A stretch of 64,000 nucleotides of DNA from Strigamia acuminata. Its lineage: Eukaryota; Arthropoda; Chilopoda; Geophilomorpha; Linotaeniidae. Below, piece after piece: positions 6,481 through 41,701 of the stretch. The translations under genes were made by a program, and so were the position numbers. The notes under the pieces are model-generated. The model had not been told where the DNA came from and ran no database searches. It saw nothing but the letters and a program-made list of their open reading frames with translations. The stretch lies in assembly GCA_949358305.1 (NCBI GenBank), contig OX442314.1, forward strand, positions 29,497,118 through 29,561,117, in the 5' to 3' direction. How positions within the stretch are numbered: the stretch's first letter is position 1; each line of letters starts with the position of its first letter.

Positions 6481-7850
6481 ATGGGTCAGTTGCTTCAGCC
6501 GCAGCAGCCGCAGCTGCAACCGGAGCCACCCGCAGTTTCTGTTCACCAGAAAGGCGAGAGCAACACCTGCAGTGTAGGAAACACGATCAACATACACGTC
6601 CAACACTTCAGTAAGTGCTTTCGGAGTTACCGAAGTATGTCATTTTACTTTTTTTTAATTCCAGATGCTTGCCAAAGCTTGAATGGTTATCAATATTACT
6701 ACGACAACACCATTGATTATGGCATTCTCAAGAGTTTAATACCCACGTTTGAAAAATTGAGGTAGTATTTGTGGTGTTTACTGTGTTTATGGCACGATTG
6801 AAAACGTTTTATTTTTATTTTTATTTTAGTGAATTTCGGTTCCAAATTAAAATTAAGTCTTATCGAGGAATCATTGACTTTGACGTTCATCCCAAGGACA
6901 CGATTCAGAGCGTCAAATTAAAACTGCAACTCCTCTACGGAATTCCACACAACAAACAAAAGCTCGTGTTTGGAGAAAATGTATTGGAAGATGAAGACAC
7001 ACTGGAGGATCGGAGAGTGGAAAACGAGAGTCTGCTACGCATGGTTTACTCTTTGGATGAAAAAGAGACGGTTTTAATATGCCAACACGTCCTTGGGAGG
7101 ACGTTTTGTCTCGGAGTCGAGCGAGAAACCACGATAAAAGAAGTGAAGATGAAGATCGAAGAAACCGAAGAGATTCCTGCGGACAGACAACGCTTGTTTT
7201 TGGCGGACGGGCGAACACTGAAGAACGAATCCAAAATCGCCGACTGCAACATCGGTCAGAATGTTGTCAAAGTTGCTCTGACATTATTAAAAGAAGATAT
7301 GATAAATATCGTCGTGAAGACGTTGACTTCGAGGTATATAAACATCTTGATTGGGAAATACGAAACGGTGGAAGACTTGAAGCTTAAAATTGAAGTCAAG
7401 GAAGGAATTCCGCCCGATCAGCAGCGATTTATTTTTGGTGGTCAACAATTGGAGGATAATTTTACGTTGTCGCATTATTTTATTGGAGAAAAAGCGTCGT
7501 TGCATTTGGTTTTGAGATTGAGTGGCGGGGATAGTACGGCAGTGATCATTCAAATTCGTACGTCGATTGGCGAAGTGTTTTCAATTGGGTTTTGTCCTCT
7601 GAGTACGACGATAGGGAAGGTTAAACGCATTGTGGAAGAGACGAGAGGGTTTTTGGTCAGAGATCAAAAGCTTTATTTGAATGATGGAGAACTGAGCGAT
7701 GAAAATAGAGAATTACGAGATTATGGTGTCAGCGGAGCGGAGGATATCTGGATTGCTAAAACTTACGTATTTGATTTAATATTGATCTCTAAAGCTCCGA
7801 GCTCCAAGTCTTCGCACGAAGATGAATCTTTGAATCTATTTTATAAATAA
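6481..7850 (+). CDS. Gene A: amyloid-like motif plus four ubiquitin-like domains (415 aa)
   Basis: Exons 6481-6610, 6665-6761 and 6830-7850, all GT-AG and phase-consistent, give 415 aa from the ATG at 6481. Exon 1 encodes a Q/P-rich start and the motif [19 protein letters not shown] (about residues 22-40). Exon 2 encodes a linker ending [11 protein letters not shown]. Exon 3 holds four ubiquitin-like folds at about residues 78-150, 153-227, 230-308 and 312-395. The third is closest to ubiquitin ([20 protein letters not shown] and [10 protein letters not shown]). It has no protease or E3 motif, signal peptide or membrane segment, so a cytosolic protein is likely. The exon pattern is shared with B, E and F. 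A role in ubiquitin-dependent or amyloid-type immune signalling is inference only. The 3' flank holds the empty target sites of transposons found in the duplicate. Confidence 0.85.
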
Positions 7851-8376
7851 TTTTTAGTTTTTTTCTTTTTAAAATTTTTTTAACACGAAAAATGTGATTA
7901 TTGTGTGAATAAAACTTGTGTATATTAATAATTAAATTCGCACATAGCCTCAAATTCTCAGAATGTACAGATAAGGAAATTAAATTAATCGTGGTTTAAA
8001 GTGGGTTAAAAATGGCGACGGGAATTTCCAGTGTCAATAAATGCAACATGCTATTGGTGGATTGCTGTCGTCACCTTGCGGGAAAGTGTATTCGTCCAAC
8101 AAACGGCATTTTCTATTCTGTGTTAAGGGTATGACAGGAAGTATAACCCTGAACTGTGTGGATTGGGAGATGGAAAAGTAATTACAGCGTGTGGTTCGAA
8201 CTCGAGGTAAATTAAGTCAAATACAATCATTATATGGTATTTATTGACCTATCCTTGAACTTAAATTAAAATTCTAGGGTGCAATTGTGATTATGCTGAA
8301 TTTTGAAACGATTTTTAAAAATATAGTTTGATCGAAGTCTATTTTTGAACGTATCGCAATTTTGAAGTCCGTTAAC
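7851..8376. other. A-B spacer carrying the pre-insertion (empty) target sites
   Basis: About 0.5 kb with AATAAA near 7908. It contains aaagtgta at 8083-8090, agtaattac near 8177 and ggtaaattaagtc near 8202. In the duplicated block these three points are where a hAT MITE, a Mutator-like element and a CACTA-like element have inserted. Confidence 0.8.
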
Positions 8377-9739
8377 ATGGAGCAGTTTCTAAAAGAAAAC
8401 GAATTGGCTGAGATTTCTGTTCGACAGGTGGGACAAAACAATGTATGCACAACTGGAAATTCGGTAACAATACATTTTCAAAACTTCAGTAAGCGCTAAA
8501 ATCGAAAACAATGTCCGATGATTTTAATTGTTCATTTGAATGTTGTTTAATTTTCTTTTACAGGTCTTACACAATGTTTGGAAAAACCGTATTCTCATAG
8601 TAAGATTTCGCACAAAATTTTGTGATAAACTCTTATCATTCTTTCATTTTTTTTTTTTTTTTTTTTTTTTTTAGACAGTTCTAATATCAATCCTGATGTT
8701 TTAAAAAGTTTAATACCAATATTTGAGAACTACAGGTGTGTAATATTACCAGACATTGCCACAGAAATTGATGATTTTTTATTGCAGGGTGGAAAGATTT
8801 GAAATAAAAATCAAAAGTCACGGAGGAATGATAAACCTTGATGTTCATCCAATGGATACAATCCAAAGCATCAAATTAAAACTACAATTGGTGTATGGAA
8901 TACTCTTCAACAAACAATATCTCATATTTGAAGAAAAAGTGCTGGAAGATGTCGAGAAATTACAAGACTGCAAACTCTCCGACGCCAGTCTCCTACACAT
9001 GGTCTACTCACTAGAAGAAACCGGAACCGTAGTATTTTTCAAACGTATACTCGGACGTCTGTTTTGTCTTCGATTTAACCAAGAAACCACAATCAGAGAC
9101 GTAAAAGCAAAAATTGAGGAAACCGAAGAAATACCCGTCAAGAGACAACGCTTATTTCTTGACGATAGCACGACTTTGAGAGACGAGTGCAGAATAGTTG
9201 ATTATAATATCGGCAAAAAAATAGTGAAGATTGCCATTGCTGTGGAGGAAGATGAGATGAGGAAAGTTATGGTCAAGTCACTGACTGGAAAAATGTTGTA
9301 CTTGGTTGTTGGGCTTCACGACACGGTCGAGGATTTAAAATGTCAACTCGAAGCCAAGGACGGAGTTCCACGGGAAAGTGTGCGAATCATTGTCAACAGT
9401 AGGAGTTTGAAAGATGATTGCATGCTATGTACTTGTTTCGACACTAAAGTCACGATATTTCACCAATTCCGTAGACTGAAGGGAGGGGAAGAATTTACTC
9501 TTGATTTAGGCATCCGCACTGCGATTGGTGAAATCATTTCACTTGGTCCCGTACCTTTTAACTCTAGAATTCTTGCCGTTAAACAACAGGTGTTTCAAGC
9601 AAGGGGATTGTCAGTTTGGAGTCAAAGACTCTTCATTGTGAATGAAGAACTGGACGATAATAAAGTGTTGAAGGACTATTTTACTCCACGGAAAAATCAT
9701 CCGCCGGTTGTTTTTGAGATTTTAATGATGATGATGTGA
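8377..9739 (+). CDS. Gene B: amyloid-like motif plus four ubiquitin-like domains (386 aa)
   Basis: Exons 8377-8488, 8564-8599, 8675-8735 and 8788-9739 join in phase to 386 aa. The intron-2 acceptor follows a T run of about 30. Exon 1 encodes MEQFLKE followed by RQVGQNNVCTTGNSVTIHF (residues 16-34). Exons 2-3 encode the linker ending LKSLIPIFENY, matching gene A. Exon 4 holds four ubiquitin-like domains; the third ends RRLKGGEEF, keeping the di-glycine of ubiquitin internally, and the fourth ends near KNHPPVVFEILMMMM. It lies head to tail with A, 526 bp downstream, and is a diverged tandem paralogue. The function is unknown; the domain set suggests a ubiquitin-mimicking adaptor. Confidence 0.85.
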
Positions 9740-9810
9740 CATTTCTGTGTTGTGATTGCTAATTGGTAATTAAATGAATTAAAAGTTTCACAGCTTGTGT
9801 TTTTTAATAT

Positions 9811-9922
9811 ATCCAGGGTAGGGTTTCTGTTTTCCCACCTTTTTTTTTAACTCCCAGTTCCCGGTACCAAAATGGCTGGTACTCCCGGGACTAACAAAAG
9901 GTCAGGCAACAAAAATGGCCAT
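9811..9922. mobile_element. Truncated hAT-type MITE (left half)
   Basis: After atccaggg (9811-9818) the sequence 'tagggtttctgttttcccacc' and the following 80 bp match the left half of the complete element at 32993-33260. The right half is missing, cut at the breakpoint near 9922. So the MITE was present downstream of the B ancestor before or during the duplication. Confidence 0.75.
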
Positions 9923-10757
9923 CTAAATCAACTTATGTGACCATCTGGCCACCCACGGTGACCCACGTCACTCCAGACACTGCTCTCTGGCCCCTGGTCA
10001 CCCCTCTTGTGAAGTAGACTGACCCAGTGGGGAAGGAGAGAGCTGATTGGTATGTGGGAAGAGAGAGTGAGTCGAGAGAGAGAGTTTGGACAGCACAGGG
10101 TGAAGACGTGTACTCTTGAGGTCCCTTAGCCAGCCTGGGCAGTGCAGTGCCCCAGTTGACTCTGCTCTTCTCCCATTCACCACTGTGACGCTCAGTAGCA
10201 GGGAGATGATTAATGTGTCCTTCTGGTGGTTTTGTGGTGGTGAATATGTATTTGTGTGGAGGTCAAGAAATGGCTGTCATCGTGTTGGGTGAGGAACAAC
10301 TAGAGTCTTTTATTACTCTTCTATACAAAGGGGGTCAAGTCACCCTGGGCGGTGAGTGCGTCACAAACATATGTCAAGAAATAAAATGAGAAAATTAAAG
10401 TGAGAACACTTTAATGACCCTGTTGCAGCCTCCATGAGCGGCTACATGGGCTATAGATAAGTAACCACAGCAGACTGTTCTATGCCAACCGACCACGTCA
10501 CTCATGGGCAAACCGTCCTGTGAGTGACGGGATGGTTGTAGGTGTGGTGTGCCCTTTGGCACCAGCATGGGTGATGGGTACTCCCAGTCCTAGACAACGG
10601 ATTAAAGCCCAAAACCAACAATCCAGAGTCCCTGTCTCCATTATTACCTGAAGGTCCGATCCCACCCATGGCGATCAATCCCCAGATTGCCGTGAGAGAG
10701 ATGCCCCGTCACACTTGTATTCATTTTTAACACCCCTAGACATTTGTACAGGCCAAA
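9923..10757. other. Unassigned insertion at the duplication breakpoint
   Basis: About 0.83 kb of GC-richer sequence that replaces both the right half of the MITE after B and the first two thirds of gene A'. It starts near TGTGACC (9936), has ataaaa words near 10380 and reaches GTCACA near 10708, which would fit a solo LTR. No clean target duplication is visible. No coding frame. Confidence 0.4.
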
Positions 10758-11442
10758 CGAAGAGATTCCTGCGGACAGACAGCGCTTGTTTTTGACGGAC
10801 GGGCGAACACTGAAGAACGAATCCAAAATCGCCGATTGCAACATTGGTCAGAATGTTGTCAAAGTTGCTCTGACGATATTAAAAGAAGATATGATAAATA
10901 TCGTCGTGAAGACGTTGACTTCGAGGTATATAAACATCTTGATTGGGAAATACGAAACGGTGGAAGACTTGAAGCTTAAAATTCAAGACAAGGAAGGAAT
11001 TCCGCCCGATCAGCAGCGATTTATTTTTGGTGGTCAACAATTGGAGGATAATTTTACGTTGTCGCATTATTTTATTGGAGAAAAAGCGTCGTTGCATTTG
11101 GTTTTGAGATTGAGTGGCGGGGATAGTACGGCAGTGATCATTCAAATTCGTACGTCGATTGGCGAAGTGTTTTCAATTGGGTTTTGTCCTCTGAGTACGA
11201 CGATAGGGAAGGTTAAACGCATTGTGGAAGAGACGAGAGGGTTTTTGGTCAGAGATCAAAAGCTTTATTTGAATAATGAAGAACTGAGCGATGAAAATAG
11301 AGAATTACGAGATTATGGTGTCAGCGGAGCGGAGGATATCTGGATTGCAAAAACTTACGTATTCGATTTAATATTGATCTCTAAAGCTCCGAGCTCCAAG
11401 TCTTCGCACGAAGATGAATCTTTGAATCTATTTTATGAATAA
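10758..11442 (+). pseudogene. Gene A': 5'-truncated copy of gene A
   Basis: From cgaagagattcctgcgg onward the sequence matches gene A (from about 7165) to its stop and beyond, but exons 1, 2 and the first ubiquitin-like domain are gone. A 232-codon frame starting at an accidental ATG (10744) remains open with no lesion. It covers half of domain 2, then domain 3 (LRLSGG kept) and domain 4. It has lost the amyloid-like motif and the native promoter, so it is probably a dead copy, although a fusion transcript is possible. Confidence 0.8.
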
Positions 11443-11848: not shown

Positions 11849-11938
11849 TTCGTCCAACAAACGGCATTTTCTATTCTATTTTAAGGGTATGAAAGGAAGT
11901 ATAACCCTAAATCACCTTCGAAAAGTGGGAAATGGAAA

Positions 11939-16218: not shown

Positions 16219-16290
16219 AGTTTTGATTGTTAAAATTCGATTTTTGCAAAAAAATCCATTATTTCCATTGTTCTTTTTCAATTTGACAAA

Positions 16291-19185
16291 ATGGCGACGC
16301 CAATGCAAATTGTAAAACGACAGCGAGGTCGACCAAGCACTCAGAAACGAGCAGCGACGGTTTTGCCGGCTCTCGAGCCTGAAATGCTTATGGAGAAAAT
16401 TATTTCCGAGGAAATAACACCAGTTCCAGATCCGAAACAACTTAAGGATGCTGAAAATGAAGTTGCTAGAGCATTAAGCGCTTCAAGTGCGAGTTCTAAC
16501 GACCAAGAACTCCCGCCACTTCCACTGGAGGAAGTGGAAAATACGTTACGTGAAATGGAAAGTGAATCGTCTCACGAATCACCTCCTCGCATGACCATGT
16601 TGGATGCTTTGAGAAATCAAGCACGCCAGGATGGCGCCCAAATAACGGACGACATGACGGTGGAAGAGATTCATCGCGCCATGATACGACTTCACACTGA
16701 CCGAGCCGTTTCAAATTTAAAATTTGAAATGGAACGGAAAGAAGCAGAGCTTCAACAACAAAAAGCTGAGGTTGAGCTTCAACACATGGAACTCAATCGA
16801 CAAAATGAGGAATTTCTAGCCCAAAAAGCTAGAGAATACCGATTAAAAGGTGAAGTGGAAGATCTTTCTAAAATGAACGCTAGAAATGAACTTTCAATTC
16901 GCTCACACCAAGAGGCGCGAAGACAGCTCGAGCTTACCAAAAGTAAGCTGGAGCAGAAAAATAAAGAATTGATTGATTTGGCAGACCACTACCAACGCAA
17001 TCATAATCAATTAGTGAGATATGCTGCTGAATTAGACACACGTGCTAAAACACAGCGTACTCGCGAGAGCAAAATAGCTAAGCGTGAAGATGAGATTTTC
17101 CACTCGCTGGATCAACCCAGTACGAGCGGACAAGTCAAGTCTAGCGACCCTGCTAAGCGATTACAACCAGAAGAATCGCAAAATCAAATAAATGAGAATG
17201 AAATTCTCCGAGCTGATTTGTTGCGCGCTCAAGAAGAGCTTGCAGAAATGAAAGATCGTTTGCAAGCAAGGAATTATACTGACCAATTGGTGCAACCAGA
17301 AATGGCTGCGCCAACTGTTCCTATTTTGACTCCCGAAACAATAACAATTTCTGTTGTTTCAGAGTTAAGTAGCCAATCTGGATTATCGAGTGATGACGAC
17401 CAACGTTCGCGTCGTCGCCATCGCTCAAAAAGAAAACGTCCTTCAGATTCTGAGGAACGGAGAGCTGATCGCAATCCACTTCCTGGTAATCGAAATCCTA
17501 TTTTTCACAACAGTGACCGACTGTTGGGGATGGTAGACGATCGAAATAGACGGCATGAAACTGGTATTCATGTTACTCGAACGATACCACTGGCTCAACA
17601 GCAAGACTCGTCAAAAAGAAGTCGACGAGACACGAATCCAGCACGCGAACCACCCGACGGACATGAAAGCCCGCCAGGTGGGGGTCAGTATAGAAGAAAT
17701 CCACCAGATGGAGGAAATCCAGATGGACACGGAGATGGACCACCTGGAGGTGGACGTCGACCGCCAGACGATGACGGCGACCCACCCGACCCACCTGAAA
17801 CACCACATTTTAACACGCCTTCAAATTCACAATCTGATTCAAGGTCGGATTCTGATGTGAATGCGCAACAAGAACGCGATAATCGACATCGATCTCATCG
17901 ACGTCGACATCGAGGCCATTCTTCTCGGCGTAATACACATTATTACACCGCTGAAGAAATTGATCGATTATTAGCTGATCGTCGATCTTCCGATCGATCT
18001 GACGCTACTGCCGATAATGCTGACATCGCATTACGACAGAAAATTGCCCAATATACTGCAATCAACTGGACACACGATCTAGTTGACGAAAGGACTATTA
18101 GATGGGATCACATCAAACCCGCTTTATTCGATGGAGAATGGGAAGCTGGATCCACTCTTTTAGATGAAGTTTTACGAATTTCAAGGTTGAATGGCATTGC
18201 ATGTCACACTGCTTTGAAAAGAGTAGTACCAAAAGCTCTTATAGACCGAGCTGAGAAATGGTTTTATTCTAAACAATTTCAAAATTGGAACCACTTTGTA
18301 GAAGAATTCATGACTGAGTATGGAGAGTCAAGTGAAGACTTATTACAAATGTGGGATAATCTTTCTCAAAATAAAGGCGAAAGTCTTCGCTCTTATTTAA
18401 GAAGGACTGAGGATTTATTGGTCACTCTCCCTTATACGATGGGAGATGCAGCCATTGATCGTCAATTCCGACGTGGATTGACAGATTATTCAAAAAATGT
18501 TCTACTTTCAGTACGAGCACCTTATCCGGGTGGTTTCGCTGAATTAGCCAAATTTATGCGAGCCAATCAAATAAGGATTGACGAAAATTATAAAGCTTAT
18601 CTACCAGCTGATGAAAAAGTTGCGTATGCTAAGCGACAGCAACGGAGAAAGGAATTAGCTAAAGATACACGTTTTGCTAATACCCCTCTTTTGCAACCCC
18701 CAAAACGAGGAGATTTTTTGGCAGAGACTGCTAAGGAATCTAAAAAGGGATCGGATGGGAAAAATCCACATCCAACCCCTAAAGCTCACTTAGCCGAAGT
18801 GACAGAAATGGAAACTGTTTCTGAACCAGAGAAATCTGACTCGGAACCAGAAAGCGAGGCTGCAGCTGCTTTATTAGCCCGTAATAACGCAGTAGCTCGA
18901 AAATTTGGACCAAAGATGGCACCTAAAAACGTTACTTTTGGTTCACCAAAGACAGACGCGCTCAGTAGATCGAAGTCGCCGACCCCTAAAAAGGACGAAG
19001 CCAAACGTTCAAGTTCGCCTTCGCCAAAAGTCGCGAAATCGCCTGCTACTGACCCGTGTAATATTTGTAAAAAATTGGGACATTGGGCTAAAGAATGTCC
19101 TGACAGAAAATCGAGCAAAGACAAGATTATAGAAGAGTTCGAGAAATCGATGAAATCAATCGGCGAACTTCTAAAAAACTTGTAA
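16291..19185 (+). CDS. gag: Gypsy element Gag (964 aa)
   Basis: It starts at ATG 16291, 92 bp after the LTR. The N-terminal third is charged, with a long coiled-coil-like stretch at about residues 135-260. The middle is Ser/Arg/Pro-rich and low complexity (about 360-560), with arginine runs near 370-385. From about 592 to 790 is a retrotransposon gag (capsid) domain: tryptophan-rich with SLRSYLRR-type helices. A CCHC zinc knuckle CNICKKLGHWAKEC starts near 923. It packages element RNA in particles. At 964 aa it is long for gypsy Gag. The frame ends two codons after a -1 slippery heptamer. Confidence 0.92.
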   Translation: MATPMQIVKRQRGRPSTQKRAATVLPALEPEMLMEKIISEEITPVPDPKQLKDAENEVARALSASSASSNDQELPPLPLEEVENTLREMESESSHESPPRMTMLDALRNQARQDGAQITDDMTVEEIHRAMIRLHTDRAVSNLKFEMERKEAELQQQKAEVELQHMELNRQNEEFLAQKAREYRLKGEVEDLSKMNARNELSIRSHQEARRQLELTKSKLEQKNKELIDLADHYQRNHNQLVRYAAELDTRAKTQRTRESKIAKREDEIFHSLDQPSTSGQVKSSDPAKRLQPEESQNQINENEILRADLLRAQEELAEMKDRLQARNYTDQLVQPEMAAPTVPILTPETITISVVSELSSQSGLSSDDDQRSRRRHRSKRKRPSDSEERRADRNPLPGNRNPIFHNSDRLLGMVDDRNRRHETGIHVTRTIPLAQQQDSSKRSRRDTNPAREPPDGHESPPGGGQYRRNPPDGGNPDGHGDGPPGGGRRPPDDDGDPPDPPETPHFNTPSNSQSDSRSDSDVNAQQERDNRHRSHRRRHRGHSSRRNTHYYTAEEIDRLLADRRSSDRSDATADNADIALRQKIAQYTAINWTHDLVDERTIRWDHIKPALFDGEWEAGSTLLDEVLRISRLNGIACHTALKRVVPKALIDRAEKWFYSKQFQNWNHFVEEFMTEYGESSEDLLQMWDNLSQNKGESLRSYLRRTEDLLVTLPYTMGDAAIDRQFRRGLTDYSKNVLLSVRAPYPGGFAELAKFMRANQIRIDENYKAYLPADEKVAYAKRQQRRKELAKDTRFANTPLLQPPKRGDFLAETAKESKKGSDGKNPHPTPKAHLAEVTEMETVSEPEKSDSEPESEAAAALLARNNAVARKFGPKMAPKNVTFGSPKTDALSRSKSPTPKKDEAKRSSSPSPKVAKSPATDPCNICKKLGHWAKECPDRKSSKDKIIEEFEKSMKSIGELLKNL

Positions 19186-19214
19186 GCGCGCATCCAGACG
19201 GTCTAGTGGATGCG
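19173..19214 (+). promoter_or_regulatory. -1 programmed ribosomal frameshift signal between gag and pol
   Basis: In the gag frame the codons are CTA AAA AAC TTG TAA, giving the slippery heptamer A AAA AAC at 19173-19179. After a -1 slip the frame runs open into pol. A 9-nt spacer leads to a perfect 8-bp stem, CGCATCCA (19189-19196) with TGGATGCG (19207-19214), and a 10-nt loop. Heptamer, spacer and stem all match the classical signal. Confidence 0.88.
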
Positions 19215-22200
19215 ACGCCTACCGCCTCGGAAAATGAACTAACACCATCTCAAATTTTAGATGAATTTTTGAATACTCAGATTAAATTAGAATTAGAAAA
19301 TAATTTAATATTTCCAAAAATTGATGTTTCCAGTTTAAGGCTTGTGCTGCAAAATGAAAACATCACTGAAGAATTTTTTAAAGAAAAAGTTCAACAATTA
19401 AAAGTTGATTGGGAATCTAAAATGAAAGATGCTGTTACTTTACTAGATGGAAAAGCTAGGCCCACACCTGAAATCACTGAAGGATCAGATAAAATTGATT
19501 TACCTGGTCTTGATGAATGTATTGAAAAATTACTGGCTACAACATTAGTCACTAATGATTTATTGGACGAATTACCATTGGATCCGCCGATAAAAATTAA
19601 ACCACCGCGACGTTTTAAATGCAAGTACGCGGACATACCAAACAGCAATGATTTGCCGACGATTCGATTGCAGACGGCAAACGGTATGATAACAGGGATG
19701 TTAGACTCTGGAGCTAATCGAAGCTTCATGGCCTACTCCGTAGTAATTTCACTGAAACTGGAAGATGAAATTCGACCAATTGGACCGGATGTGAGAGTTA
19801 CGACTGCTTCAGAAGATGTAGTCCCTGAAGGAACTCTCCTACTTTCTTTTGCGTGGACACACGGGATGTTAAGTCATCCATTCATAATTTTAAGAAACAA
19901 ATATCCTATTATTTTATTAGGATGTGATTTCATGAATCGACTCAATATTCAACCAAATCCTAAGACCATGTCTTGGAATTTTGTCAAGTCTTTGAAAGAA
20001 GATTTACCTTTTGTTCCTCAAGCGATTCTTGATCGTTATCAAGAGTTCCTTGATCCACCTGAAGAAATAATGAATAGCGACTTTATTAAAGTAAATCACA
20101 TGAAAGCTGGTTCCGCCACTGCATGTCAAGCTAAAGTTGCCGATGAAGAAAATATAGTACAAAGACTTGTTAGCGACGCTAATTTGTCAATGGAAAATAA
20201 TTTAATGCTTGAAAGAGTATTAAAGAAACATGAAAAGATTTTATCACGCCGACCAGGTAGAACACACCTCGTTAGGCATGAAATTAAACTGGACACTAAA
20301 GTTCCTATTAGAGTTCCGTTTAAAAGCGTAAATCCACAGAAACGTGAAATTATCCGTCAAATCTGTCAAGATATGTTGGATAATGGGTACGTTGAACAAG
20401 CCACTGGAGACTATGGGATGCGAATAGTTCTAGTGATGCGTCCGGATTGTGATCCGAGACTATGCATTGATTTTAGACCACTCAATGCACATACATTATA
20501 CGACCCTCCTCAAATGCCCAGCATTGAGGAAATCTTGCGAGAACTCGGAAGGTTTGAATGGGTCACAACAATAGATTTGTCAAAAGGCTATTGGCAAATA
20601 GAGGTTCATCCGAATGACCGTGCTAAAACTGCGTTTTGGAGCCCTTTGGGTCGACTTCAATTTCGAGTCATGCCCTTTGGTCTCGTAAATGCGCCGTCAA
20701 CTTTTCAAAAGTTGATAGAAAAAATTTTGGGGGACGCCTATCGAAAATTCGCATGGGCATACCTCGATGATATAATTATTATATCAAAAAATTTTGAAGA
20801 ACACATGATTCATCTGGAAGAAATTCTGAGTAAACTTGAAAATGCAAATCTTCATGTTCATCCAGAAAAATCAAAATTTGGCAGAAAAGAATTAACTTTT
20901 CTTGGTTACAAGTTAAGTGTTCAAGGAGTTAGTGTCGACCCTAAAAAAGTCGCAGCTATTAAAGAAATGCCAGCTCCTTCGAATTTGAAAGAGTTGCAAA
21001 GATTTTTGGGAATGGTGAACTTTTTTCACCGATTACTTAAAAATCTTGCAGTAATGACAGAACCTCTACGTCCTTTACTCAAAAAGGATGTGGAATTTAT
21101 TTGGTCAGAAATTCATCAAGAAGCTTTTGATCAAATAAAAGATGCTTTGACAAATGCAGAAACAATGGCCATGCCTGATTTGACAGAACCATTTATTGTG
21201 CATACCGACGCCAGCAGAAAAGGACTTGGCGCCGCGCTTATGCAAATGAGGGAAATCGATGATCAAAATATAGAAGTGCCTTGTGTTTATGCCAGCAGAA
21301 GTTTACAACCTGCTGAGATAAATTACAGCGCCACAGAATTGGAGTGCCTAGCGGTAATCTGGGCATTACGTAAATTTCGACATTACTTGGAATTTACAAC
21401 ATTCATAGTAAGAACTGACCATCAAGCACTAAAATGGTTGATGCAGTTAGACGAACCTGCCGGAAGGTTAGCGCGTTGGCAAATGGAGCTAATGCGCTAC
21501 TCTTTCGAAATACAATATATTAAAGGTCCACTAAATGTTTTAGCGGATGCTTTATCCAGATCACCGATTGATAAACCGGAAAATCCTGAAGATGATGGAG
21601 ATAATGATGAATTATTATCTTACTGTCCATCACCACAACGAAATTGGAAAATGGGAAAATTTCATGAGCTTCCTGTCTCCACGCTGGAGGAAAAGGAAGA
21701 TCACGAATTCGTCAACTATTGGACTAAAATCTATGACCCCTCTGAGGAATCAGATGACGTCATAAGAGCGCAAATTTCAAGGAAATTCCAAGTTCCTTCG
21801 TCAAATGTTTTAATAAAAGCATTTGTCGCCAAAATTGTAGAGCGTCTTGATTGTGAACCCCCCACAAGGGAAGACATAATCAAGGCCCAAAAAGAAGATA
21901 AAGTTTGCCAATTAATGCGTAATTTTTTAAATTGTAATCAATTTCCGCCTGACGTCACAACGCGACTCCAGAGGAAACAATATAGAAAACACGCAACCAC
22001 CTTCTTAATTGAAGATGACTTATTAATGCAATTTCATCCCACAATGTCTGATGAATTGGGGGAGGATGGGAGAGCACTCAAAGTTTTTGTACCTCAGACA
22101 TTGAAGTATAAAATTATTTGGCTAATGCATGGCCACCCACTTTCTGGCCACCCAGGAATTGCAAGGACTCTTTATCGAGCACGCCGAATTTATACCTGGA

Positions 22201-23862: not shown

Positions 23863-26695
23863 ATGGAAGGAGAGGAACCGAAAGAAGGAAGCGAAGCCGG
23901 CGCCAACAGCCTCGAATTAGAGACAAATTCGACGCTGCTTGGTTCCGCAAACACTTCGAATACATCCGTGGATGTCACCGAAGAATCCGCCGAAGCGTCC
24001 GCCGAAGCTCAAGCCGCTCTGGCCGACGCTGCTGCCCGTTTGCCAGTCGCGCTGCCCCGACTACGAGGAGGCCTATTCGCCGATCCGAACGGCGAAACTC
24101 GTGCACAGAGACACGACCGGGTAAATAATTCAAAATAAAATTACCTTTCAGTCATGAAAAGTAATTAAAAGTGCATTTTCACTCGGAAAAAGCGAAAAGT
24201 TCGTTGGTAACGCCTTCGCAAGAAGGCGCCGCCATTTTTATCATCAGATGGCGCTGTGTCTCATTTTTGAGGCGTTGCTACGGCAACGCTCCAAACACTG
24301 AAACATAGCCGTCGGAAACAACGTTTTTCACGATTTTTCAAACATTTTGAAAAATTTAACGAATCTAAACTGTCGAATGAAATCTCACCCGTGATTTTAT
24401 TCACTGAAAATTCGGAAATAATTAATTTTAACGAAAAAATGGATTTTAATTATTTCTTCGAATATTTTACAGATCATCCAGCTTCGGGAGACGCATCTCG
24501 AACTACACCCCGATGTTCCAACAGCTCCTGGTGTCTGGCGACATGCATTGCCGCCAGAAATCATCAAGTCCAAAGGAAGACTGACGTTTTGGGCGGCCCG
24601 ACACAAATTCTCCAAGGCCTTAAACAAGCGATGGGGAACAAAGTTTCGGATCGCCTACTTAATCGATGGATTCGGTCATCGCGACGCCCTCGAGTGGGCA
24701 ATGAAGCGCGACACCTTCGGACCACTGCGAAACGTGTTGCTCGACTTCGCCTTCACAGTGATCGCTCAAGAAACGCGAGACCATCGCCGTTACTTCAACG
24801 CTCCTGCGTGGGAGCGCCGACAGATTTTGGAGGACATTTTCCAACGCTTGGACCAAACCAAAGCCGAGGTTGTACGCCTCTACCACGAATCTTTCCGTGT
24901 AACAACGGACGGAAAGAAACGTTGGGTGCCGACATGCCAGTCGGAAATGCATCAGCTAGCCATGGGCGGATGTTTCCATGCTGATTTCGTGCCAAACCCG
25001 TATCCAGAGCCTGAGCCCCGGGTACAGGTCGCTTCCACCATCCACGTGGTGCCGCCGCGCTCCACGTCGAGGTCACGATCATCGAGGTCGCCCTACAGTG
25101 GCCGTCGCTCCTCCCCAACCCAGTCGTCGGGGGAAGGCGCCATTGGAGGGTTACCTCCACTCCAGAAGACTCGTCATCGCTCACATCACCGACGCGAGTC
25201 GACGCCGCCAAAAAGACATTCGAAGTCCGTGTCGAGACCCGCATCCCGAAGCCGACCTCGAGTGCAATCGCGCCAATCTTCCACGAGGAGTTCACTCTCG
25301 TCGCGCGAAGAAAGATCCAACGCTTCTCAGCTTAGCGCTTCCACCTCCTCCTGCCAGATTGACTGGTCGGACGAGATAGCGAAGGAAGATCGTCGCATCG
25401 CCGCTTTGCAAGCCGGTCAAGGAGACGTCAACACCTCTTTGCCGTTCGCTTGCCGTCCAGTCACCAGCGACATGCGACCAGACCCATCGGTGCCCGTGCC
25501 ACAAGTGACATCGGTCATCCGTTTTGAGGGATACGTCTCTCACGAACCATTTCCCGCACAGGAGTGCGCTGATCTCTGGAGGCGATTCTCATCGTTTCCC
25601 GAGACAGCCCAAACGATGTACCTCGCGCATCTGGACGAATACCAACTCGCTCAGATCCGCGAAGGAGAGAAGGAATGGCAATGGCTTGCCCGAGAGCTTG
25701 CGTCGTGCAAGTCCGACAAGCAACTGCAACGGACGCTGCAGAAAATGAACAGGAAATTGTCGGAGGGACTTCTTCGAATCCTGTTCCAAGGAGTCTTTCC
25801 CGACCCACAGATTGCTCTGGCGGCCGCCACTCGATTGTGGACCGTGCCGTTAGGGCTTCCACGAGCCTTGCTGGACGATTGGGAGTCAGTTCGCCCCGAT
25901 CCTCCAACGATGCTCGCCGAATTGACGCAACAAGCCGAGGCGACTGGCGAAACTCCGGCTGGATCCGCCATTCGACTACGGCAGGAATGGGCTGCGCTGA
26001 AGCAGCGACGCGCAGCAGAACGAGCTACCGCCCGTCCCGCTGGCGCACCACCGTCATCCGCAGCTCCACTCCACGCTGCCATCACGGCAACGTCGAGTGT
26101 TTCCCGTGCAACCGAGGCACCGAGTTGCAACATCTCGTCTCCGATGGAATGGCTCGACAGCGACGATCGCGAGTTCGTCGTGCCTGTGGCCAGCGGTGCC
26201 AGACCAAAGACGCGCACCCCGGCTTTGCGCAGATCCAGATCCCTCTCGATCTGCAAAAAGTCGCCGCCACCGCTGCCTCCTCCAAAGGATTCGCCGCCGA
26301 GAGATAGGGGATCGAAAATGGCCACCTACCTCACTGCCTATCAACGTTTGCGCTCTTTATACGCTTTTTGCTACATAACGAGCGCGACGAAAACGATTCT
26401 CCAGAACAGCGAGGATTTATGCAACCGAGTCCTCGCGTGGCTGGAAAACCATATCAAGGAACAACAGCCGTGGATCCTGCATCAACGTCTGGTGTTCGCT
26501 CGAATTACGCCTCAAGACCCGCAGGAGTATTTCGAGATGGGTTTTGGACGAAGGGATGGTGTGGACCGCATCAAGCAAGTGTGGCTCCACATCAACCCTG
26601 GCTTCCGGTCAGGACCAAACGCCGGCCGACCTTTGTGCACCGTCACCGAGCACAAAGATCCAAACGATCATTCGACGGACATGTTGCCGAAATAA
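23863..26695 (+). CDS. Third reading frame of the gypsy element, two exons, unknown function
   Basis: Exon 1 is 23863-24120 (86 codons, acidic, ending just before gtaaat). Exon 2 is 24473-26695, after tattttacag. Both are in phase 0, giving about 826 aa. The first part of exon 2 is Trp/Arg-rich and looks globular. Residues of about 280-370 are rich in Arg-Ser and His-Arg words (RSTSRSRSSRSPYSGRR). A second helical region at about 430-620 is followed by a Pro-rich linker and a third compact region starting MATYLTAYQRLRS. There is no signal peptide, transmembrane helix or fusion-peptide pattern, so it is not an ordinary env. A nucleic-acid-binding regulator is inference. Codons are GC-richer than in gag and pol, hinting at separate origin. 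Confidence 0.75.
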
Positions 26696-30007: not shown

Positions 30008-30320
30008 TATGAATTTTGAATTCAGGATTCAGGAATGAATTCAGGATTTAGAATTTATGATTCAGGAATGAATTCAGGATTTAGAATTTATGATTCAGGA
30101 ATGAATTCAGGATTTAGAATTTATGATTCAGGAATGAATTCAGGATTTAGAATTTATGATTCAGGAATGAATTCAGGATTTAGAATTTATGATTCAGGAA
30201 TGAATTCAGGATTTAGAATTTATGATTCAGGAATGAATTCAAAATTCAGTAATTGATTTAGGATTCAGGATTCAGAAATGGATTCAGGATTCAGAATTCA
30301 GGATTCAGAAGTGAATCCTC
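30008..30320. repeat. 33-bp minisatellite, about seven units
   Basis: A unit containing 'gaatgaattcaggatttaga' repeats nearly perfectly from 30033 to 30240 and decays on both sides. Because 33 is a multiple of three it gives a repetitive frame (MNSGFRIYDSG), which I do not regard as a gene. Confidence 0.9.
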
Positions 30321-30842: not shown

Positions 30843-32912
30843 ATGGAGCAATTTCTAAAAGAAAACGAGTCGGCTGAGATTTCTGTTCGACAGGTGGGAC
30901 AAAACAATGTATGCACAACTGGAAATTCGGTAACAATACATTTTCAAAACTTCAGTAAGCGCTAAAATCGAAAACAATGTCCGATGATTTTAATTGTTCA
31001 TTTGAATGTTGTTTAATTTTCTTTTACAGGTCTTACACAAAGTTTGGAAAAACCGTATTCTCATAGTAAGATTTCATAAAAAAATTTTGTGATAAACTCT
31101 TATCATTCTTTCATTTTCTTTTGTTTTTTTTTATTTGTTTTGTTTTAGACAGTTCTGATATCAATCCTGATGTTTTGAAAAGTTTAATACCAATATTTGA
31201 GAACTACAGGTGTGTAATATTACCAGACATTGCCACAGAAATTGATGATTTTTTATCGCAGGGTGGAAAGATTTGAAATAAAAATCAAAAGTCACAGAGG
31301 AATGATAAATCTTGATGTTCATCCAATGGATACAATCCAAAGCATCAAACTAAAACTACAATTGGTGTATGGAATACTCTTCAGCAAACAATACCTCATA
31401 TTTGAAGAAAAAGTGCTGGATGATGTCGAGAAATTACAAGACTGCAAACTCTCCGATGCCAGTCTCATACACATGGTCTACTCACTAGAAGAAACCGGAA
31501 CTGTAGTATTTTTCAAACGTATACTCGGACGTCTGTTTTGTCTTCGATTTAACCAAGAAACTACAATAAGAGACGTAAAATCAAAAATTGAGGAAACCGA
31601 AGAAATACCTGTCAAGAGGCAACGCTTGTTTCTTGATGAAAGCACGACTTTGAGAGATGAGTGCAGAATATTTGATTATAACATCGGCAACAAAATAGTG
31701 AAGATTGCCATTGCTGTGGAGCAAGATGAAATGAGGAAAGTTATGGTCAAGTCACTGACTGGAAAAATGTTGTACTTGGTTGTTGGGCTTTACGACACGG
31801 TCGAGGATTTAAAATGTCAACTCGAAGCCAAGGACGGAGTTCCACGAGAAAGTGTGCGAATCATTGTCAACAGTAAGAGTTTGAAAGATGATTGCATGCT
31901 ATGTACTTGTTTCGACACTAAGATTACGATATTTCACCAATTCCGGAGACTGAAGGGAGGGGAAGAATTTACTCCTGATTTAAGCATCCACACTGCAATT
32001 GGTGAAATTATTTCACTTGGTCCCGTGATACCTTTTAACTCTAGAATTCTGCTGCGATCCGGGTTTATGTGAACAATTTCTAATAAATTGCACACAACAC
32101 CGCAGTTGAATGCCACTAAGGACTTATATCGATATGGCCTTAAATTATCTAGGGTTAATTTTACGGAAATAAAATACAGTTTTATCAATAAAAACACACA
32201 ATCTTTTATTCGGTTAAATACAATAAGATACGAGAATAAATGTGATAAAATATGGAAAGAAACAATAGAAATACTCGCAACGACTGTTGCGAGTCAAAAG
32301 CGCGGCAATGGCGCTTAAGAACGGCTGTTGTACAAGGTTTTGTACAAGAAAAGCTGGTGAATCTTGAGTATTAACACGGTCCACTATCAGTACTTTTGTC
32401 GGAGCAGAAAGCAATGATGTTGTGGGTTGTGTTATTTTGTCAAGAGTCCCGTTCGAAGCTAGGGCGTGAGCCCGACACACTTCGAAATTGCGCAGATAAT
32501 CTGCGCAATTAGTTAAAACTGGTGCGACAAAGGATTATTGCACCATAACGGCTAATTACCGTTTTCACCCTGGACAACCTGGGGTGAGATGTGCCTAGGG
32601 AAGATTTCTCCCCTCGGTCACATGATCTGACTTAACGTGTGCCAAGCCAAATTAATTAGAAGATAAAATAAATTCACCTTCTAAGTGGTGAAACAGTTTG
32701 AGATCACTACACTTCTTGCCGTTAAACAACAGGTGTTTCAAGCAAGGGGATTGTCAGTTTGGAGTCAAAGACTATTCATTGTGAATGAAGAACTGGACGA
32801 CAATAAAGCGGTGAATGAAGAACTGGACGACAATAAAGCGTTGAATGACTATTTTACTCCACGGAAAAATCATCCGCCGGTTGTTTTTGAGATTTTAATG
32901 ATGATGATGTGA
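30843..32912 (+). pseudogene. Gene B': duplicate of gene B broken by a solo LTR
   Basis: Exons 30843-30954, 31030-31065, 31149-31209 and 31262 onward match gene B in length and splice sites. The motif RQVGQNNVCTTGNSVTIHF is unchanged. In the fourth ubiquitin-like domain a 662-bp solo LTR (32050-32711) interrupts the frame, and a stop follows 12 codons later at 32072. After it the remaining domain has an exact 30-nt in-frame duplication (VNEELDDNKA twice, 32792-32851) and runs to the stop at 32912. Domains 1-3, including RRLKGGEEF, stay open, so a shortened protein of about 347 aa could still be made. Confidence 0.88.
32046..32715 (-). mobile_element. Solo LTR related to the gypsy element
   Basis: Read on the minus strand, 32050-32711 starts TGTAGTGATCTC and ends AACCCGGATCGCAGCA, very like the ends of the full gypsy LTR (TGTGGTGACCTC ... 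AACCCGGATCGCCGCA). Flanks attc and cttc are a 4-bp duplication with one change. It contains perfect hairpins (actcgcaac/gttgcgagt near 32275; aattgcgcaga/tctgcgcaatt near 32484). Internal parts were lost by LTR recombination. Confidence 0.8.
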
Positions 32913-34294: not shown

Positions 34295-36146
34295 TTAGAT
34301 TACAAAACCTTTCACAACCAATTCCAACGTAATTTCAGGTCCGAATTCTTCGCATGGTCTTGAACTTTGATATTGAAGAATGTAATATTTCAATGGTTTG
34401 TCATCATCAACTAATTCTTGATCGCATAAGAACAAACGTTGATTCTCAGGCAGAAAACTCTTATTCGATTCATACATTTCTTGTTTAATGGTGCAAATCT
34501 TAAACTCTTGATAACCGTTGTACACTCCAAGAGAAAATATTTGTCCAATCGACGTTCTCACTGACAGCATAGTAAAATTGCTTCCACCTACTTGTCTCAT
34601 GTAAACATGCAATGTGGCATTTCTTGTAATTACGTAATCGTTCATATTTTTTTCGTCTTCAAGGCTTTTGCAATTAAATACAATATTTAGTAAGTGTGGT
34701 GGACACATCATAATCTTTTGAATTTTTCTCTTAACATCATTATCTGTTTCGTACATGCCAACTTCCAAGCATGTGTCTTGACCATAACCCCGCAGAAAGA
34801 TGGATTTAAAGTCCTCTTTCATAACCTTGGCTGCTAACTTGAAAATGGTTGTCTCAACTGGGTAATCGTTAATTGTGCCGCCATCTTGCATCACCAGACC
34901 AGTCTCTGTAAACAACTGTTGCCTGTCTACTGGCAGTCTTTCCTCTTGTTCTATTTGTGTTTTCACAGTTTTTATAGTGCAATTTGGTTCAACTTCGAGT
35001 TTAAATATTCTTCCATGGATTCTTTGGATTAGAATAAGTATTTTATCTGTGTGCGACAAGTGAAATAGAGTTATGTTATCGTTGTTGTTAATATTGCATT
35101 CCTTGATGGTGTTTTGATTTTGCAGAATTTCTTCTCCAAATACGAGACATTGTATCTAAACTCTATTCCAAAAAGTATTACAAATACTCCCATTGGTTGG
35201 TTGGTTGAGACACTTTAAAAAATCTTCGCACAAGTCTACTGGAATCTGAAAACAGCATCATATTCAAGACACAACTGAACTGTGAATCTCCCAACCAATG
35301 GGAGTATTTGTAATACTTTTTGGAATAGAGTTTAGTTTGAGTTTAGTCGTTTGTATTGTATCTGAAGGATGGACATCCAGAATTACATATTCATCGTTGT
35401 TCTTTATTTGAATTTGGATTCTATTTTTTCTGAAAAGTGAATCAAAATGTATAATTGAAATACAATGTTTTCACAGAATATAGAAATGAATTACTGGAAG
35501 AAAATAACTAGTGGGTTTTTATAAATAACCTTACCTGTGGTTCTCGAATAATGATAACAAAGAACTTATTTTATTGGGATCCTTGTCAGCTGCAAAAAAA
35601 AAATAATATTGTTACACAAATACAAATCTCAATCAATGTGTTCCATTTTTGATATGCGATGAATTACGCAATAACAACCGCCCAATTGTCCCCCCGATGA
35701 GTTGGCCACAAGATTACTTTGCACGCGATTACCTGTCTGCGTAATTACCTGTCCGCGCAATTACCTGTTCACGCGATTATCTGTCCACGCGAGTACGGTG
35801 GCTGTACACTATGAGTGGTCGCGTGATGATAAGTTGCCGTACAAAAAAACAATTTTTTACACATAAAAAGTTTATATTTTGTATTTTTATATTTTAAAAA
35901 TGTTCATTTTTGCCAAACTATCAAAACTAATTAAAATTATTTGTTATCAAAGAAATTTAGTTGATGGGAATTTCCCTTTTGAATATACTGACCGCTTTTT
36001 ACATGGATTACTACCATGTTGTCTCCTATTGTACAAGAATTACCGTCTCCCTGCTGCGAGATACTAATTTTGTTCAGTTCTGTCTTCACCTCTTTAACCG
36101 AAACACAGTTATTCTCTTCTTCTTGACAAGGAGTGATTTTATCCAT
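34295..36146 (-). pseudogene. Gene E: minus-strand member of the family, broken in domain 1
   Basis: Exon 1 (36146-35993) encodes a longer N-terminus and SQQGDGNSCTIGDNMVVIHV. Exon 2 (35589-35535) encodes DKDPNKISSLLSLFENH. Exon 3 runs from 35429 to the stop at 34295; splice sites and phases match gene F. In domain 1 a MITE (35157-35334) is inserted and 26 bp present in F are missing, giving a frameshift and an in-frame TAG. Domains 2-4 downstream remain open for 254 codons (from TTG 35059), and domain 3 ends in a VGG version of the ubiquitin tail. Use of the MITE as an intron is not supported, as its ends are not GT-AG. Confidence 0.82.
35157..35334. mobile_element. Foldback MITE inside gene E
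   Basis: Arms of about 40 bp starting 'aactctattccaaaaagta' are perfectly inverted, flanked by TA. Comparison with gene F shows the exact insertion point in exon 3. Confidence 0.88.
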
Positions 36147-38475: not shown

Positions 38476-38859
38476 CCAATGAGAAAGAAATTTCACTATT
38501 ATTTTATAGTGAAATTTGAGCTCATTACAAGTGGATTTTTTTTTAGTGAAAATAGTACTTTTTCAACATTAATATTTTTATTTTTATAAAGAGTTAATTT
38601 TTCAGTAAATATATTGGATTAAATTAAATTAAATTAAATAAATTAAATAAAATATGTTTTTTTTTTGTGAATATATTAAAGTAAGTTAATTTTTTTGTGA
38701 ACATATTAAATCAATATTTTTTAAATAAATGAATGTTTTTCTGTAAATATCAAAAAATACATGAGTGCTATTTAGTAAATATTTTTTTAAAAAAATGCAT
38801 GCTTTTTAACAGATTTTAAAACATATTTTTTATATATGTAAAAATGGATAAAATAAATC

Positions 38860-39225
38860 ATTAAAAACTAGTAGGTAAAAATCATGAAAAACTGGGTGAA
38901 AATCGTAAAAAATCGTGAAAAACAAGATAAAAATTGTGAAAAACTCGGTAAATATCGTGTAAAATCGTGAAAAACGATAAAAATCATGTAAAATCGTGAA
39001 AAACTGGGTAAAAATCGTGTAAAATAATGAAAAACCGGGTAAAAATCGTGTAAAATCATGAAAAACTGGGTGAAAAAGGTAAAAATCGTGACAAACTGGG
39101 TAAAAATCGTGAAAGCCTCAGTAAAAATCGTCAAAAACTGTGTAAAAATCGTCAAAAACTGTGTAAAAATCGTCAAAAATCGTCAAAAACTGGGTGAAAA
39201 GTCTTGAAAAGCTTGTAAAAAATCA
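38860..39225. repeat. Degenerate ~20-bp minisatellite
   Basis: Units around 'gtaaaaatcgtgaaaaactg' repeat irregularly for about 365 bp. Confidence 0.8.
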
Positions 39226-39372
39226 TGAAAATAAGCAGATTATGATTTTTCAAATTTCGATTATCATCTGATGATGTAAATTGCATCATTTCCTGTGACT
39301 GTTAAGTCAAATTAGTCAAATCAGTCAAATCAGTCATTTCAGACAAATAATTCATTTGACTTTGAATGCACC

Positions 39373-40344
39373 TATTATTGTGTAAATACTCCGAGATAAA
39401 AATGTCTTTAAAAATAGACAAATATCATAACTGTGTTATAAACACTCGAGTTGGTCACTTTCTAGTTGTAATTCGAAGTGTACTTACGGTTAGAGCTCGG
39501 GTTTCTAGTTAACTGCGAGTATCCAGTAGAGCGCGGGCACATTATAAGGGGTTGCATATGATGGGCAGGGACGTCTTAACACTTTTCAGCGCCCTGGGCT
39601 TAAAAAAAATCAGGCGCCCATTGCCCTTTGTCGTAATTAAAAAAAAATCATTTTTACCTTTACAATTTCACAGGCCCGTTCCTCGGGCACCTTTCTCTGC
39701 CCGGCACCCCTCTCTGCCTGGCGCCCCTCTCTGCCCAGCGTTCCTCTCTGCCCAGCGTTCCTCTCTGCCCAGCATTCCTCTCTGCCCAGCCCCTCTGGGC
39801 TGCAGCCCAGTTAGCCCAATGGTAAAAATGGGCCTGATGATGGGGCATGTCAGAGTTGGACTTCTGTTCAAACTCGTCCCATGTCCAGATGTGCTGATTC
39901 TGAGCGCATCTGGACGTTGCTTCCCAACTCAAGAATTTGAAAGCATACTAATCAAGATTGGATTCGGTGAACACCGCAGAAAGAACTCGATACCGGAATT
40001 AATGCCAAGCTTATTATTTTTGGAGTGTTCGGCTCTCTAATTTCTGTCACGTGTTCTCTTATGTTAATTTGTAACCCATTTACGCGCGCCGCGCCCTCTG
40101 TATTAGCTCCGTGAATAAACACTTATGCGAATGGTCGCTTTGTGATTCTCTTCATGCAACAATCCAACAATACTATAATACATCCATTTGATCACAAACA
40201 GGAAAAACATCAATTTATAAATTTATTTTCAGAATTTCTGGATTGATACAAAATGTATAAAATTGGATGCCACGTGGTCAGGGGAGGTCCACGGGATGCT
40301 GGACGCAACACACACGATGAATTACCAACGAAATAACCCCTGCA
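39373..40344. other. Spacer between the composite element and gene F
   Basis: Contains a 17-bp minisatellite of 'ttcctctctgcccagcg' type (39690-39800). A GC-containing stretch near 40070-40180 with AATAAA (40112) ending 'caacaatccaac' could be a copia-type LTR remnant. No gene I can support. Confidence 0.4.
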
Positions 40345-41701
40345 TTAAAAAGGAACAATGTTTACGTTGTTATATCGGAAATTTTCAAATGTAGGGGTAT
40401 TGAATATGTATTCAATATTCCGATAATAATTTTCATCATAAATCGGTTCATTGGGAGCTACAAAGCCAATTGGTTGAGGTTGACTGCAGCTTTGCAGAGA
40501 AATGGATTTAAAGTCCTCTTTAATCATTCTGTCTGCTAACTTGAAAACGGTTGTCTCAACTGAATATTTATTAATTGCGTCTTCATCTTGTATTATCTGG
40601 CCACACTCAGTAAACAACTGTTGCCTGTCTACTGGCAGTCCTTCTTCCTGTTCTATTTGTGTTTTCACAGTTTTTATAGTGCAGTTTGGTTCAGCCTCGA
40701 GTTTAAATAGTCTTCCATGGATTCTTTGGATTAGAATAAGTATTTTATCGCTGTGCGACAAGTGAAATAGAGTTATGTTATCATCGTTGTTAATATTGCA
40801 TTCATTGATGGTGTTTTGATTTTGTAGTATTTCTTCTCCAAATACGAGACATTGTATCTTGTTGTCTACCCCAAAGATCAATTCTAGTTTGAGTTTAGTA
40901 GTTTGTATTGTATCTGAAGGATGAACATCAAGAATTATATTTTCATCGTTATTCTTGATTCGAATTTTAATTCTATTCTGTCTGAAAAGTGAATCAAAAT
41001 GTTTAAATTGAATACAATATAATATTCCTATAGATACAGAATATAGAAATAACTAAATACTGTATACCTGTGGCTTTCAAATGCTGATAACAAAGAACTT
41101 ATTTTGTTGGGATCCTTGTCGGCTACAAAGAAAAATATAATTTATTTCACAAGTACGAATCTCAATCAATACGCCATTTTATTTTTGTAGTGTTTCAAAT
41201 TTAAAATTGCAGTTTCATTTGTCTAAAATGTGCAACTTTTGCACAAAATTGCAGTTTTGTTTATTCAAAATGAATTTTTGCACAAAATTGCAGTTTTGTT
41301 TATTCAAAATGAATTTTTGCACACAAAATTTCTGTTTTATTTGTCTAAAATGAATATTTGCTGATAAAATGTCAGGCATTATCTAATCAAAACCAAAACG
41401 GATGTTTGCAAAATTTCAAGTTATTTTCTTAAAAAAAATCATTTGTGTGTGTAAAAATGAATTTTTTTTATTCTTAATTTTAAAAATCTTCATTTTTTGC
41501 CATCTTTTCTTGTCAAAGAAAATTCCCCTTTTAAACATACTAACCTTTATTTAAATGGACAAACAGCATGTTGTCTCCTATTGTAATGGAATTACCATCT
41601 CCCTGCTGCGATATACCAATTTTGTTCAGTTCTGTCTTCACCTCATCCTTAATTGAAACACAATTATTGCCGTCTTCTTGCCAAGGAACAATTTCTTCCA
41701 T
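40345..41701 (-). CDS. Gene F: amyloid-like motif plus two ubiquitin-like domains (282 aa)
   Basis: Exons 41701-41545, 41122-41068 and 40981-40345 join in phase to 282 aa. Exon 1 encodes SQQGDGNSITIGDNMLFVHL after a negatively charged start. Exon 2 encodes DKDPNKISSLLSAFESH. Exon 3 has ubiquitin-like domain 1, domain 2 (EEGLPVDRQQLFTECGQ) and the first strand of domain 3 (KEDFKSISLQ). It then changes to an unrelated tail rich in Tyr, Asn and Phe ending NNVNIVPF. Relative to E it is cut short after domain 2, so the LxxGG tail is absent. No stop or frameshift occurs before that, so it may be a functional short form. Confidence 0.78.
41150..41544. repeat. Intron 1 of gene F with 41-bp tandem units
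   Basis: Units containing 'cacaaaattgcagttttgtt' repeat about three times (41210-41345). The remainder is AT-rich intron. Confidence 0.75.

Follow-up and report, generated by a model that had tools for sequence, protein, structure and literature searches.

A 64,000-nucleotide stretch of chromosome 1 of the centipede Strigamia acuminata (C1:29497118-29561117; hereafter the window) carries six copies of a gene family in which a short motif encoded by the first exon is followed by a linker and tandem ubiquitin-like (Ubl) domains. The conserved residues of the motif are spaced as in the Imd gene of the same genome, and the predicted array finds its best structural match in linear tetra-ubiquitin. 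We tentatively read the encoded proteins as RHIM-related adaptors that may join Imd-type assemblies and present a gene-encoded scaffold resembling linear polyubiquitin, a reading to which we give somewhat less than an even chance.

Within the window, copies A and B are intact, F is open but short, and C, D and E are damaged. Three further intact genes, U1, U2 and U3, lie 55-62 kb upstream of the window (C1:29435480-29442421), and all five intact genes have GT-AG introns. The intact members share one layout, composed of a motif of about 22 residues (Q-x-G-x-x-N-x4-G-N-x3-[IV]-H), the linker and four Ubl domains. Gene A (6481-7850 of the window, forward strand) encodes 415 residues. Its first exon (6481-6610) contains the start codon and the RHIM-like motif, identified by its pattern, and is closed by a splice GT after 6610; in the spliced model, exon 2 (6665-6761) encodes a conserved segment of the linker and exon 3 (6830-7850) the four Ubl domains, the third of which has L8, I44, H68 and V70 in the residue table and ends in LRLSGG. 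Gene B (8377-9739, forward strand, 386 residues) encodes the motif ISVRQVGQNNVCTTGNSVTIHF in exon 1 (8377-8488), a linker with NPDVLKSLIPIFEN in exons 2 and 3 (8564-8599 and 8675-8735), and four Ubl domains in exon 4 (8788-9739), with the third ending in RRLKGG. An initial annotation, made from the letters of the window, had placed the motif correctly in A, B, E and F, and its description of a linker followed by two to four Ubl domains in one exon agrees with the four domains of A, the four of B (Pfam) and the two of F; its member list omitted C, D and the three upstream genes.

The family is more than a chance arrangement, because the five intact genes are under purifying selection, as judged by the ratio of nonsynonymous to synonymous substitution rates (dN/dS), and because T1IX06 of Strigamia maritima, an independent gene model, aligns with U1 over 373 residues without a gap at 73% identity, motif included. 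This full-length alignment also confirms the exon structure of U1. The residues Q, G, N, G, N and H of the motif are invariant in all seven distinct S. acuminata motifs (that of D repeats B), and the same six are present in T1IX06. For the pair U2-A, whose dS ranges from 0.72 to 1.20 across the six regions, dN/dS amounts to 0.08 for the motif and 0.40 for the linker, and to 0.12, 0.13, 0.40 and 0.38 for Ubl1 to Ubl4, respectively. Few parts of the protein are as constrained as the motif. Of the four domains, Ubl3 is conserved least, with a mean identity of 0.38 and 9 invariant columns out of 78, and Ubl4 is constrained (dN/dS 0.25-0.60 in the eight computable pairs). There was no sign of positive selection, every computable dN/dS being at or below 0.60 with dS saturated in many pairs; values could be computed for 5 of the 10 pairs in the motif, 7 in the linker, and 7, 8, 6 and 8 in Ubl1 to Ubl4. 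The fast-evolving locus proposed by the initial annotation is thus visible in its turnover of copies, but not in its rate of sequence change.

Database searches place the family, so far, in the genus Strigamia only, among the matches listed and among proteins up to about 378 residues. Residues 1-160 of A, used as the first protein query, gave no match (81 candidates). A full-length profile retrieved 4456 proteins at E ≤ 0.001, of which the best 120 were mostly polyubiquitins; T1IX06 was among these, and more family members may be among the remainder. A query spanning the motif to Ubl2, in a search that covers proteins up to about 378 residues only, retrieved T1IX06 and P0121, a protein of two Ubl domains without the motif.

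The exon-1 motif and Imd

The S. acuminata genome (237.5 Mb, 157 contigs) contains a gene at C3:27228348-27229745 (reverse strand) which, spliced by eye, starts with MASGN and encodes LETD/AVPA at residue 20, the tetrad IQIG at residue 126 within IQIGHANNLQFGNTITV, and a C-terminal death domain (PF00531, 35.1 bits against a cut-off of 22.6) whose nearest match in the PDB is RIPK1 (E 6.2e-10). LETDA is described as the caspase site of dipteran IMD (PMC6626034). By its sequence the gene is Imd, since it combines this site with IQIG and a RIPK1-like death domain; it would thus encode a putative caspase site LxxD/A with an inhibitor-of-apoptosis (IAP)-binding motif, a RHIM-type motif and a death domain. 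One study reports imd to be absent from myriapods (PMC5316886), while Palmer and Jiggins list for S. maritima a single IMD together with two transmembrane PGRPs, in which they found no RHIM (PMC4833078). The gene described here, with its LETD/AVPA and IQIG, supports the presence of imd in myriapods.

In Imd, the residues Q, G, N, G and N are spaced as in the family, and a true IQIG tetrad is present. When the family pattern was searched for in 16 immune loci of about 3.2 kb, i.e. ten death-domain and six PGRP places in the genome, it was found in one, Imd. An ungapped matrix built from six family motifs (A, B, U1, U2, U3 and S. maritima) gave the Imd site 12.2 bits, more than any other segment outside the family in the roughly 349 kb scanned, which are not a random sample; the next segment scored 5.7 bits, and one of 5000 shuffles of Imd equalled its score. 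A hybrid query run against the whole genome at E ≤ 10 retrieved seven places, namely six family motifs and Imd (E 0.16), and an E/F-like version of it retrieved E and F only. Peptide queries from A, B, U1 and E retrieved family members only, and the Imd peptide only Imd itself. Exon 1 ends in phase 1 in all eight family copies that have it, and the motif exon of Imd also has phase-1 ends, but this is weak evidence because phase 1 is common. We judge a link between the family motif and that of Imd to be likely, though short of proof.

Several results weigh against this link and against a RHIM-like character of the motif. The RHIM core tetrad, defined as (V/I)-Q-(V/I/L/C)-G (PMC9444067), occurs in none of the eight distinct motifs of the family (it reads R-Q-V-G in B and D), and the residues at -1 and +1, where RHIMs are hydrophobic, are polar for the most part. 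Pfam RHIM (PF12721) matched none of the 13 sequences scanned, and a scan of the genome gave no match at E ≤ 1 (17 candidates), although this test is of limited weight, as the IQIG motif of Imd in the same genome is also unmatched. The tetrad alone also arises by chance, in six other frames of the 16 loci that lack the remaining pattern. In the matrix scan Imd comes out ahead of E (8.8 bits), and F is not listed, because both E and F have one extra residue. HMMER does not score Imd significantly (4.2 bits; best domain 2.7, E 58 in 30,000 sequences), the bare Imd peptide reaches 8.5 bits (E 2.5), and in another run, which did not list Imd, several of 20,000 shuffles reached scores of up to 10.4. 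The hybrid query was designed with knowledge of the Imd motif and failed to retrieve E and F. Finally, the motif was found in none of the six PGRP loci (about 3.2 kb each, plus 6.4 kb upstream of one, other upstream exons being unread). Four of the six PGRP matches in the genome form an exon cluster at C6:3322334-3337778.

A search of the PDB with the motif profile gave no match at E ≤ 10. A generic aggregation score on the AGGRESCAN scale, whose outcome is not decisive, places a hot spot within or beside the motif in six of eight cases; A and U2 have none, which also counts against an assembly motif. In the AlphaFold model of T1IX06, the predicted local distance difference test (pLDDT) is 26-33 over residues 1-40, where no other alignment row covers the motif, and stays below 50 over residues 1-60, including a helix predicted at residues 46-57 of the linker (conserved LKSLIPxFE, pLDDT about 40). 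The initial annotation had named an ordinary strand pair in the motif as the outcome that would speak against it. No such pair was predicted, which is a weak result; both the strand-pair and helix calls are of low confidence because the alignment rows from the window began after the motif and the linker helix. The Curlin repeat (PF07012) was considered and rejected, as only E and F match it, at 14.7-16.7 bits against a cut-off of 20.7, and each protein has one motif.

The motif could alternatively be a short linear motif and not serve assembly, or be a pair of strands that takes its fold only on a partner; its likeness to Imd would then be a coincidence, and the proteins would be ordinary tandem-Ubl scaffolds. 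The missing Pfam RHIM match, the insignificant HMMER score of Imd, the best Curlin score of only 16.7 bits and the uneven aggregation score all fit this explanation, and the low pLDDT of the motif may merely reflect missing alignment rows. That Q, G, N, G and N are strongly constrained and stand in register with the IQIG site of Imd argues against it, and we regard this explanation as unlikely, albeit with appreciable weight. The label of a RHIM/curlin-like motif given by the initial annotation seems apt in that Q-x-G-x-x-N is joined to tandem Ubl domains and recurs in Imd, and inapt in its stricter sense, with no core tetrad, no Pfam RHIM match and Curlin below the cut-off. By definition the family motif is not a RHIM; by kind, it is probably related to one.

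The ubiquitin-like array and its possible action

PF00240 scores 181.9 bits for A and 120.8 bits for B (cut-off 25.4), with four stretches in each, and AlphaFold, given T1IX06 and five rows from the window, predicts four Ubl folds (mean pLDDT 68, predicted template-modelling score 0.50). By domain score and predicted beta-grasp fold, the domains can be assigned to the ubiquitin-like group. Foldseek ranks linear tetra-ubiquitin bound to HOIL-1L, optineurin or ABIN1 highest (7yui, 5b83, 7eb9), followed at lower rank by OASL (7sbi) and ISG15 (7s6p, 5chf), with TM-scores of only 0.2-0.3 by query length, which are low because the spacing of the domains is uncertain. This ranking lends support to the polyubiquitin mimicry suggested by the initial annotation. 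Each family domain shares 14-45 of 73-76 residues with ubiquitin.

Judged by individual residues, only Ubl3 resembles a ubiquitin that could bind readers, with a mostly kept Ile44 patch. Among the six full-length proteins, its L8 is present in five, H68 in five and V70 in three, and position 44 is I in four and M or L in two. K63 is lost from five of the six Ubl3 domains and K48 from four. Speaking against a fully chain-like array, Ubl1 has V70 without L8, and Ubl2 and Ubl4 have neither. The junction between Ubl3 and Ubl4 has Gly-Gly (GG) in all nine copies that possess it, i.e. the six full-length proteins and C, D and E. The array was rejected as a polyubiquitin precursor or conjugatable modifier in the ordinary sense, since GG follows Ubl3 only and the end of Ubl4 lacks it in 6/6.

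The conserved GG could nevertheless mark a different kind of modifier precursor, in which a cut after it frees Ubl4 and the part from the motif through the linker to Ubl3 is conjugated like ISG15, tagging targets with an assembly motif. The GG is invariant even though Ubl3 is the least conserved domain, and the domain ends in LRLSGG in A and U2 and in LGLRGG in U3. However, the residues before GG vary (RRLKGG in B, NIMGG in U1, NIYGG in S. maritima), so that recognition by an E1 and a protease is doubtful, and Ubl4 is itself constrained, as described above. We consider this explanation improbable.

We propose instead that the N-terminal motif would be an assembly motif related to RHIMs and akin to that of Imd, by which a presumably cytosolic protein could bind Imd and join or seed its amyloid-type assemblies. 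The four tandem Ubl domains together would resemble a linear (Met1, M1) polyubiquitin chain, and the array, chiefly Ubl3-GG-Ubl4, might offer a ready chain to the NF-kB kinase machinery with no need for a ligase; candidate readers would be of the Kenny/NEMO (UBAN) or TAB2 type. In flies, PGRPs and Imd are described to assemble through amyloids of the cryptic RHIM (cRHIM), and K63 and M1 chains to act on TAK1 and Kenny (PMC9496462, PMC6462001); M1 chains bind the UBAN of Kenny (PMC6462001), and a lysine-less linear Ub6 alone raises Relish, for which Ile44 is required (PMC7348737). The same study reports, to the disadvantage of our proposal, that kenny knock-down left the toxicity of linear chains unrelieved (PMC7348737). 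In its boldest form, the proposal holds that a single polypeptide unites the two halves of an NF-kB signalosome, namely an amyloid motif for co-assembly with Imd and an encoded chain resembling linear polyubiquitin. Ubiquitin ligases could then be bypassed, or the protein could stand in for the RHIM not found in the transmembrane PGRPs of Strigamia; this stronger version seems doubtful to us.

Activation is likewise a supposition; the direction of the effect, activator or decoy, cannot be told from sequence. The main rival is a decoy or brake, in which the motif would enter assemblies of Imd (or PGRP) so that these are capped or cleared, in the manner of fly Pirk, with the Ubl array delivering them to the proteasome or to autophagy. 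A tetrad that is degenerate in all eight motifs, with Q, G and N kept, might suit a capping partner, and the Ile44 patch is missing from most of the Ubl domains. Pirk, which has a cRHIM, is described as possibly destabilising the Imd amyloid or directing PGRP-LC towards degradation (PMC9496462), and a mosquito Pirk-like protein is reported to suppress such amyloids even without a cRHIM (PMC9531809). On the other hand, four Ubl domains exceed what a decoy needs, and the predicted chain best matches linear tetra-ubiquitin, the kind of chain that in flies raises Relish (PMC7348737). We judge the decoy to be rather unlikely.

Other copies and neighbouring sequence

Among the matches of a genome-wide ubiquitin search (at least 58), diverged tandem Ubl exons of the family kind occur only within one region of about 103 kb, to which the window copies and U1-U3 belong. 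Copy C (about 10755-11442, forward strand, open reading frame) is a recent 5'-truncated duplicate of A (96.2% nucleotide identity over 931 columns) that has no motif exon and begins within Ubl2. Copy D (30843-32912, forward strand) duplicates B (93.9% nucleotide identity over 1384 columns); an insertion in Ubl4 closes its frame at 32072, and the remainder of Ubl4 is found at about 32707-32912. Upstream of D, a 33-base tandem repeat (30013-30241, forward strand, 6.9 copies, 98%) has an open frame repeating FRIYDSGMNSG.

The remaining two copies are on the reverse strand. Gene E has its motif ISISQQGDGNSCTIGDNMVVIHV, identified by pattern, in exon 1 (35993-36146), and the rest (34295-35589) comprises a linker exon (35589-35535) and a Ubl exon whose third domain ends in VGG. 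Its Ubl1 is broken by an insertion at 35156-35335 (reverse strand) with perfect 45-base inverted arms 90 bases apart, which resembles a miniature inverted-repeat transposable element (MITE) or a foldback element. Gene F carries the motif IGISQQGDGNSITIGDNMLFVHL, again identified by pattern, in exon 1 (41545-41701), followed by exons 2 (41122-41068) and 3 (40981-40345) with the linker, Ubl1 and Ubl2. It is open across its three exons, has two Ubl domains only, and ends in a short tail unlike that of the other members.

About 750 bases upstream of gene A there is a full-length match to 5S rRNA (5609-5727, reverse strand; 107.7 bits). A Ty3/Gypsy-type retroelement (16234-23654, forward strand) has a long open gag with a zinc knuckle and a pol with reverse transcriptase, RNase H and integrase, and for a further frame of 757 residues (24422-26695) Pfam gave no hit at E ≤ 0.001. 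Beyond F, two exon-like frames (43601-44378, forward strand) match PF00137 ATP-synt_C (37.2 and 51.5 bits) and resemble a V-ATPase proteolipid gene, and the region 44361-60896 contains many minisatellite arrays with units of 20-62 bases and one of 187 bases. Elsewhere in the assembly, C1 starts with CCTAA telomere repeats of the arthropod type, and C157 (15,068 bases) reads as the mitochondrial genome.

Comparison with known systems

Signalling through RIPK1/Imd has two physical scaffolds, RHIM-type amyloids and ubiquitin chains, of which the latter are normally attached by ligases. If our proposal is true, a natural protein carrying both would show that a gene can encode such a chain and spare its assembly, a possibility at which OASL and ISG15 hint in vertebrates. 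It would also bear on how Imd is activated in myriapods, given that the PGRPs of S. maritima are reported without a RHIM (PMC4833078). Among the titles listed from the literature on RHIMs with ubiquitin-like domains, none describes a RHIM protein that bears tandem ubiquitin-like domains.

With regard to the motif, the closest counterpart is Imd of the same genome, which shares Q-x-G-x-x-N-x4-G-N-x-I-x-V in identical register, but has the IQIG tetrad and a death domain where the family has no tetrad and has Ubl domains. RIPK1, RIPK3, ZBP1, TRIF, the fungal PP and the bacterial BASS motifs are similar in having a short motif outside folded signalling domains with a conserved Q, G and then N; unlike RHIM proteins, the family lacks the core tetrad and a Pfam RHIM match. 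Insect cRHIMs are described as lacking the Gln, which the family keeps (PMC9496462). Pirk, a small arthropod protein whose cRHIM is described to act on PGRP and Imd assemblies, can be likened to the family in this respect (PMC9496462).

As to the array, OASL is a vertebrate antiviral innate immune protein with tandem Ubl domains and is among the fold matches (7sbi). It mimics polyubiquitin to help RIG-I; its two Ubl domains lie behind an OAS-like domain, and it is not known to have a motif of the family type. Pirk is not known to have Ubl domains. ISG15, a tandem-Ubl immune modifier that is also among the fold matches (7s6p, 5chf), has two Ubl domains and a C-terminal LRLRGG, whereas the family proteins end without GG and carry the N-terminal motif. 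Linear (M1) polyubiquitin resembles the family in its head-to-tail ubiquitin folds and in the GG at the Ubl3/Ubl4 junction, and differs from it in that the other junctions of the family have no GG and only 14-45 of 73-76 residues are shared.

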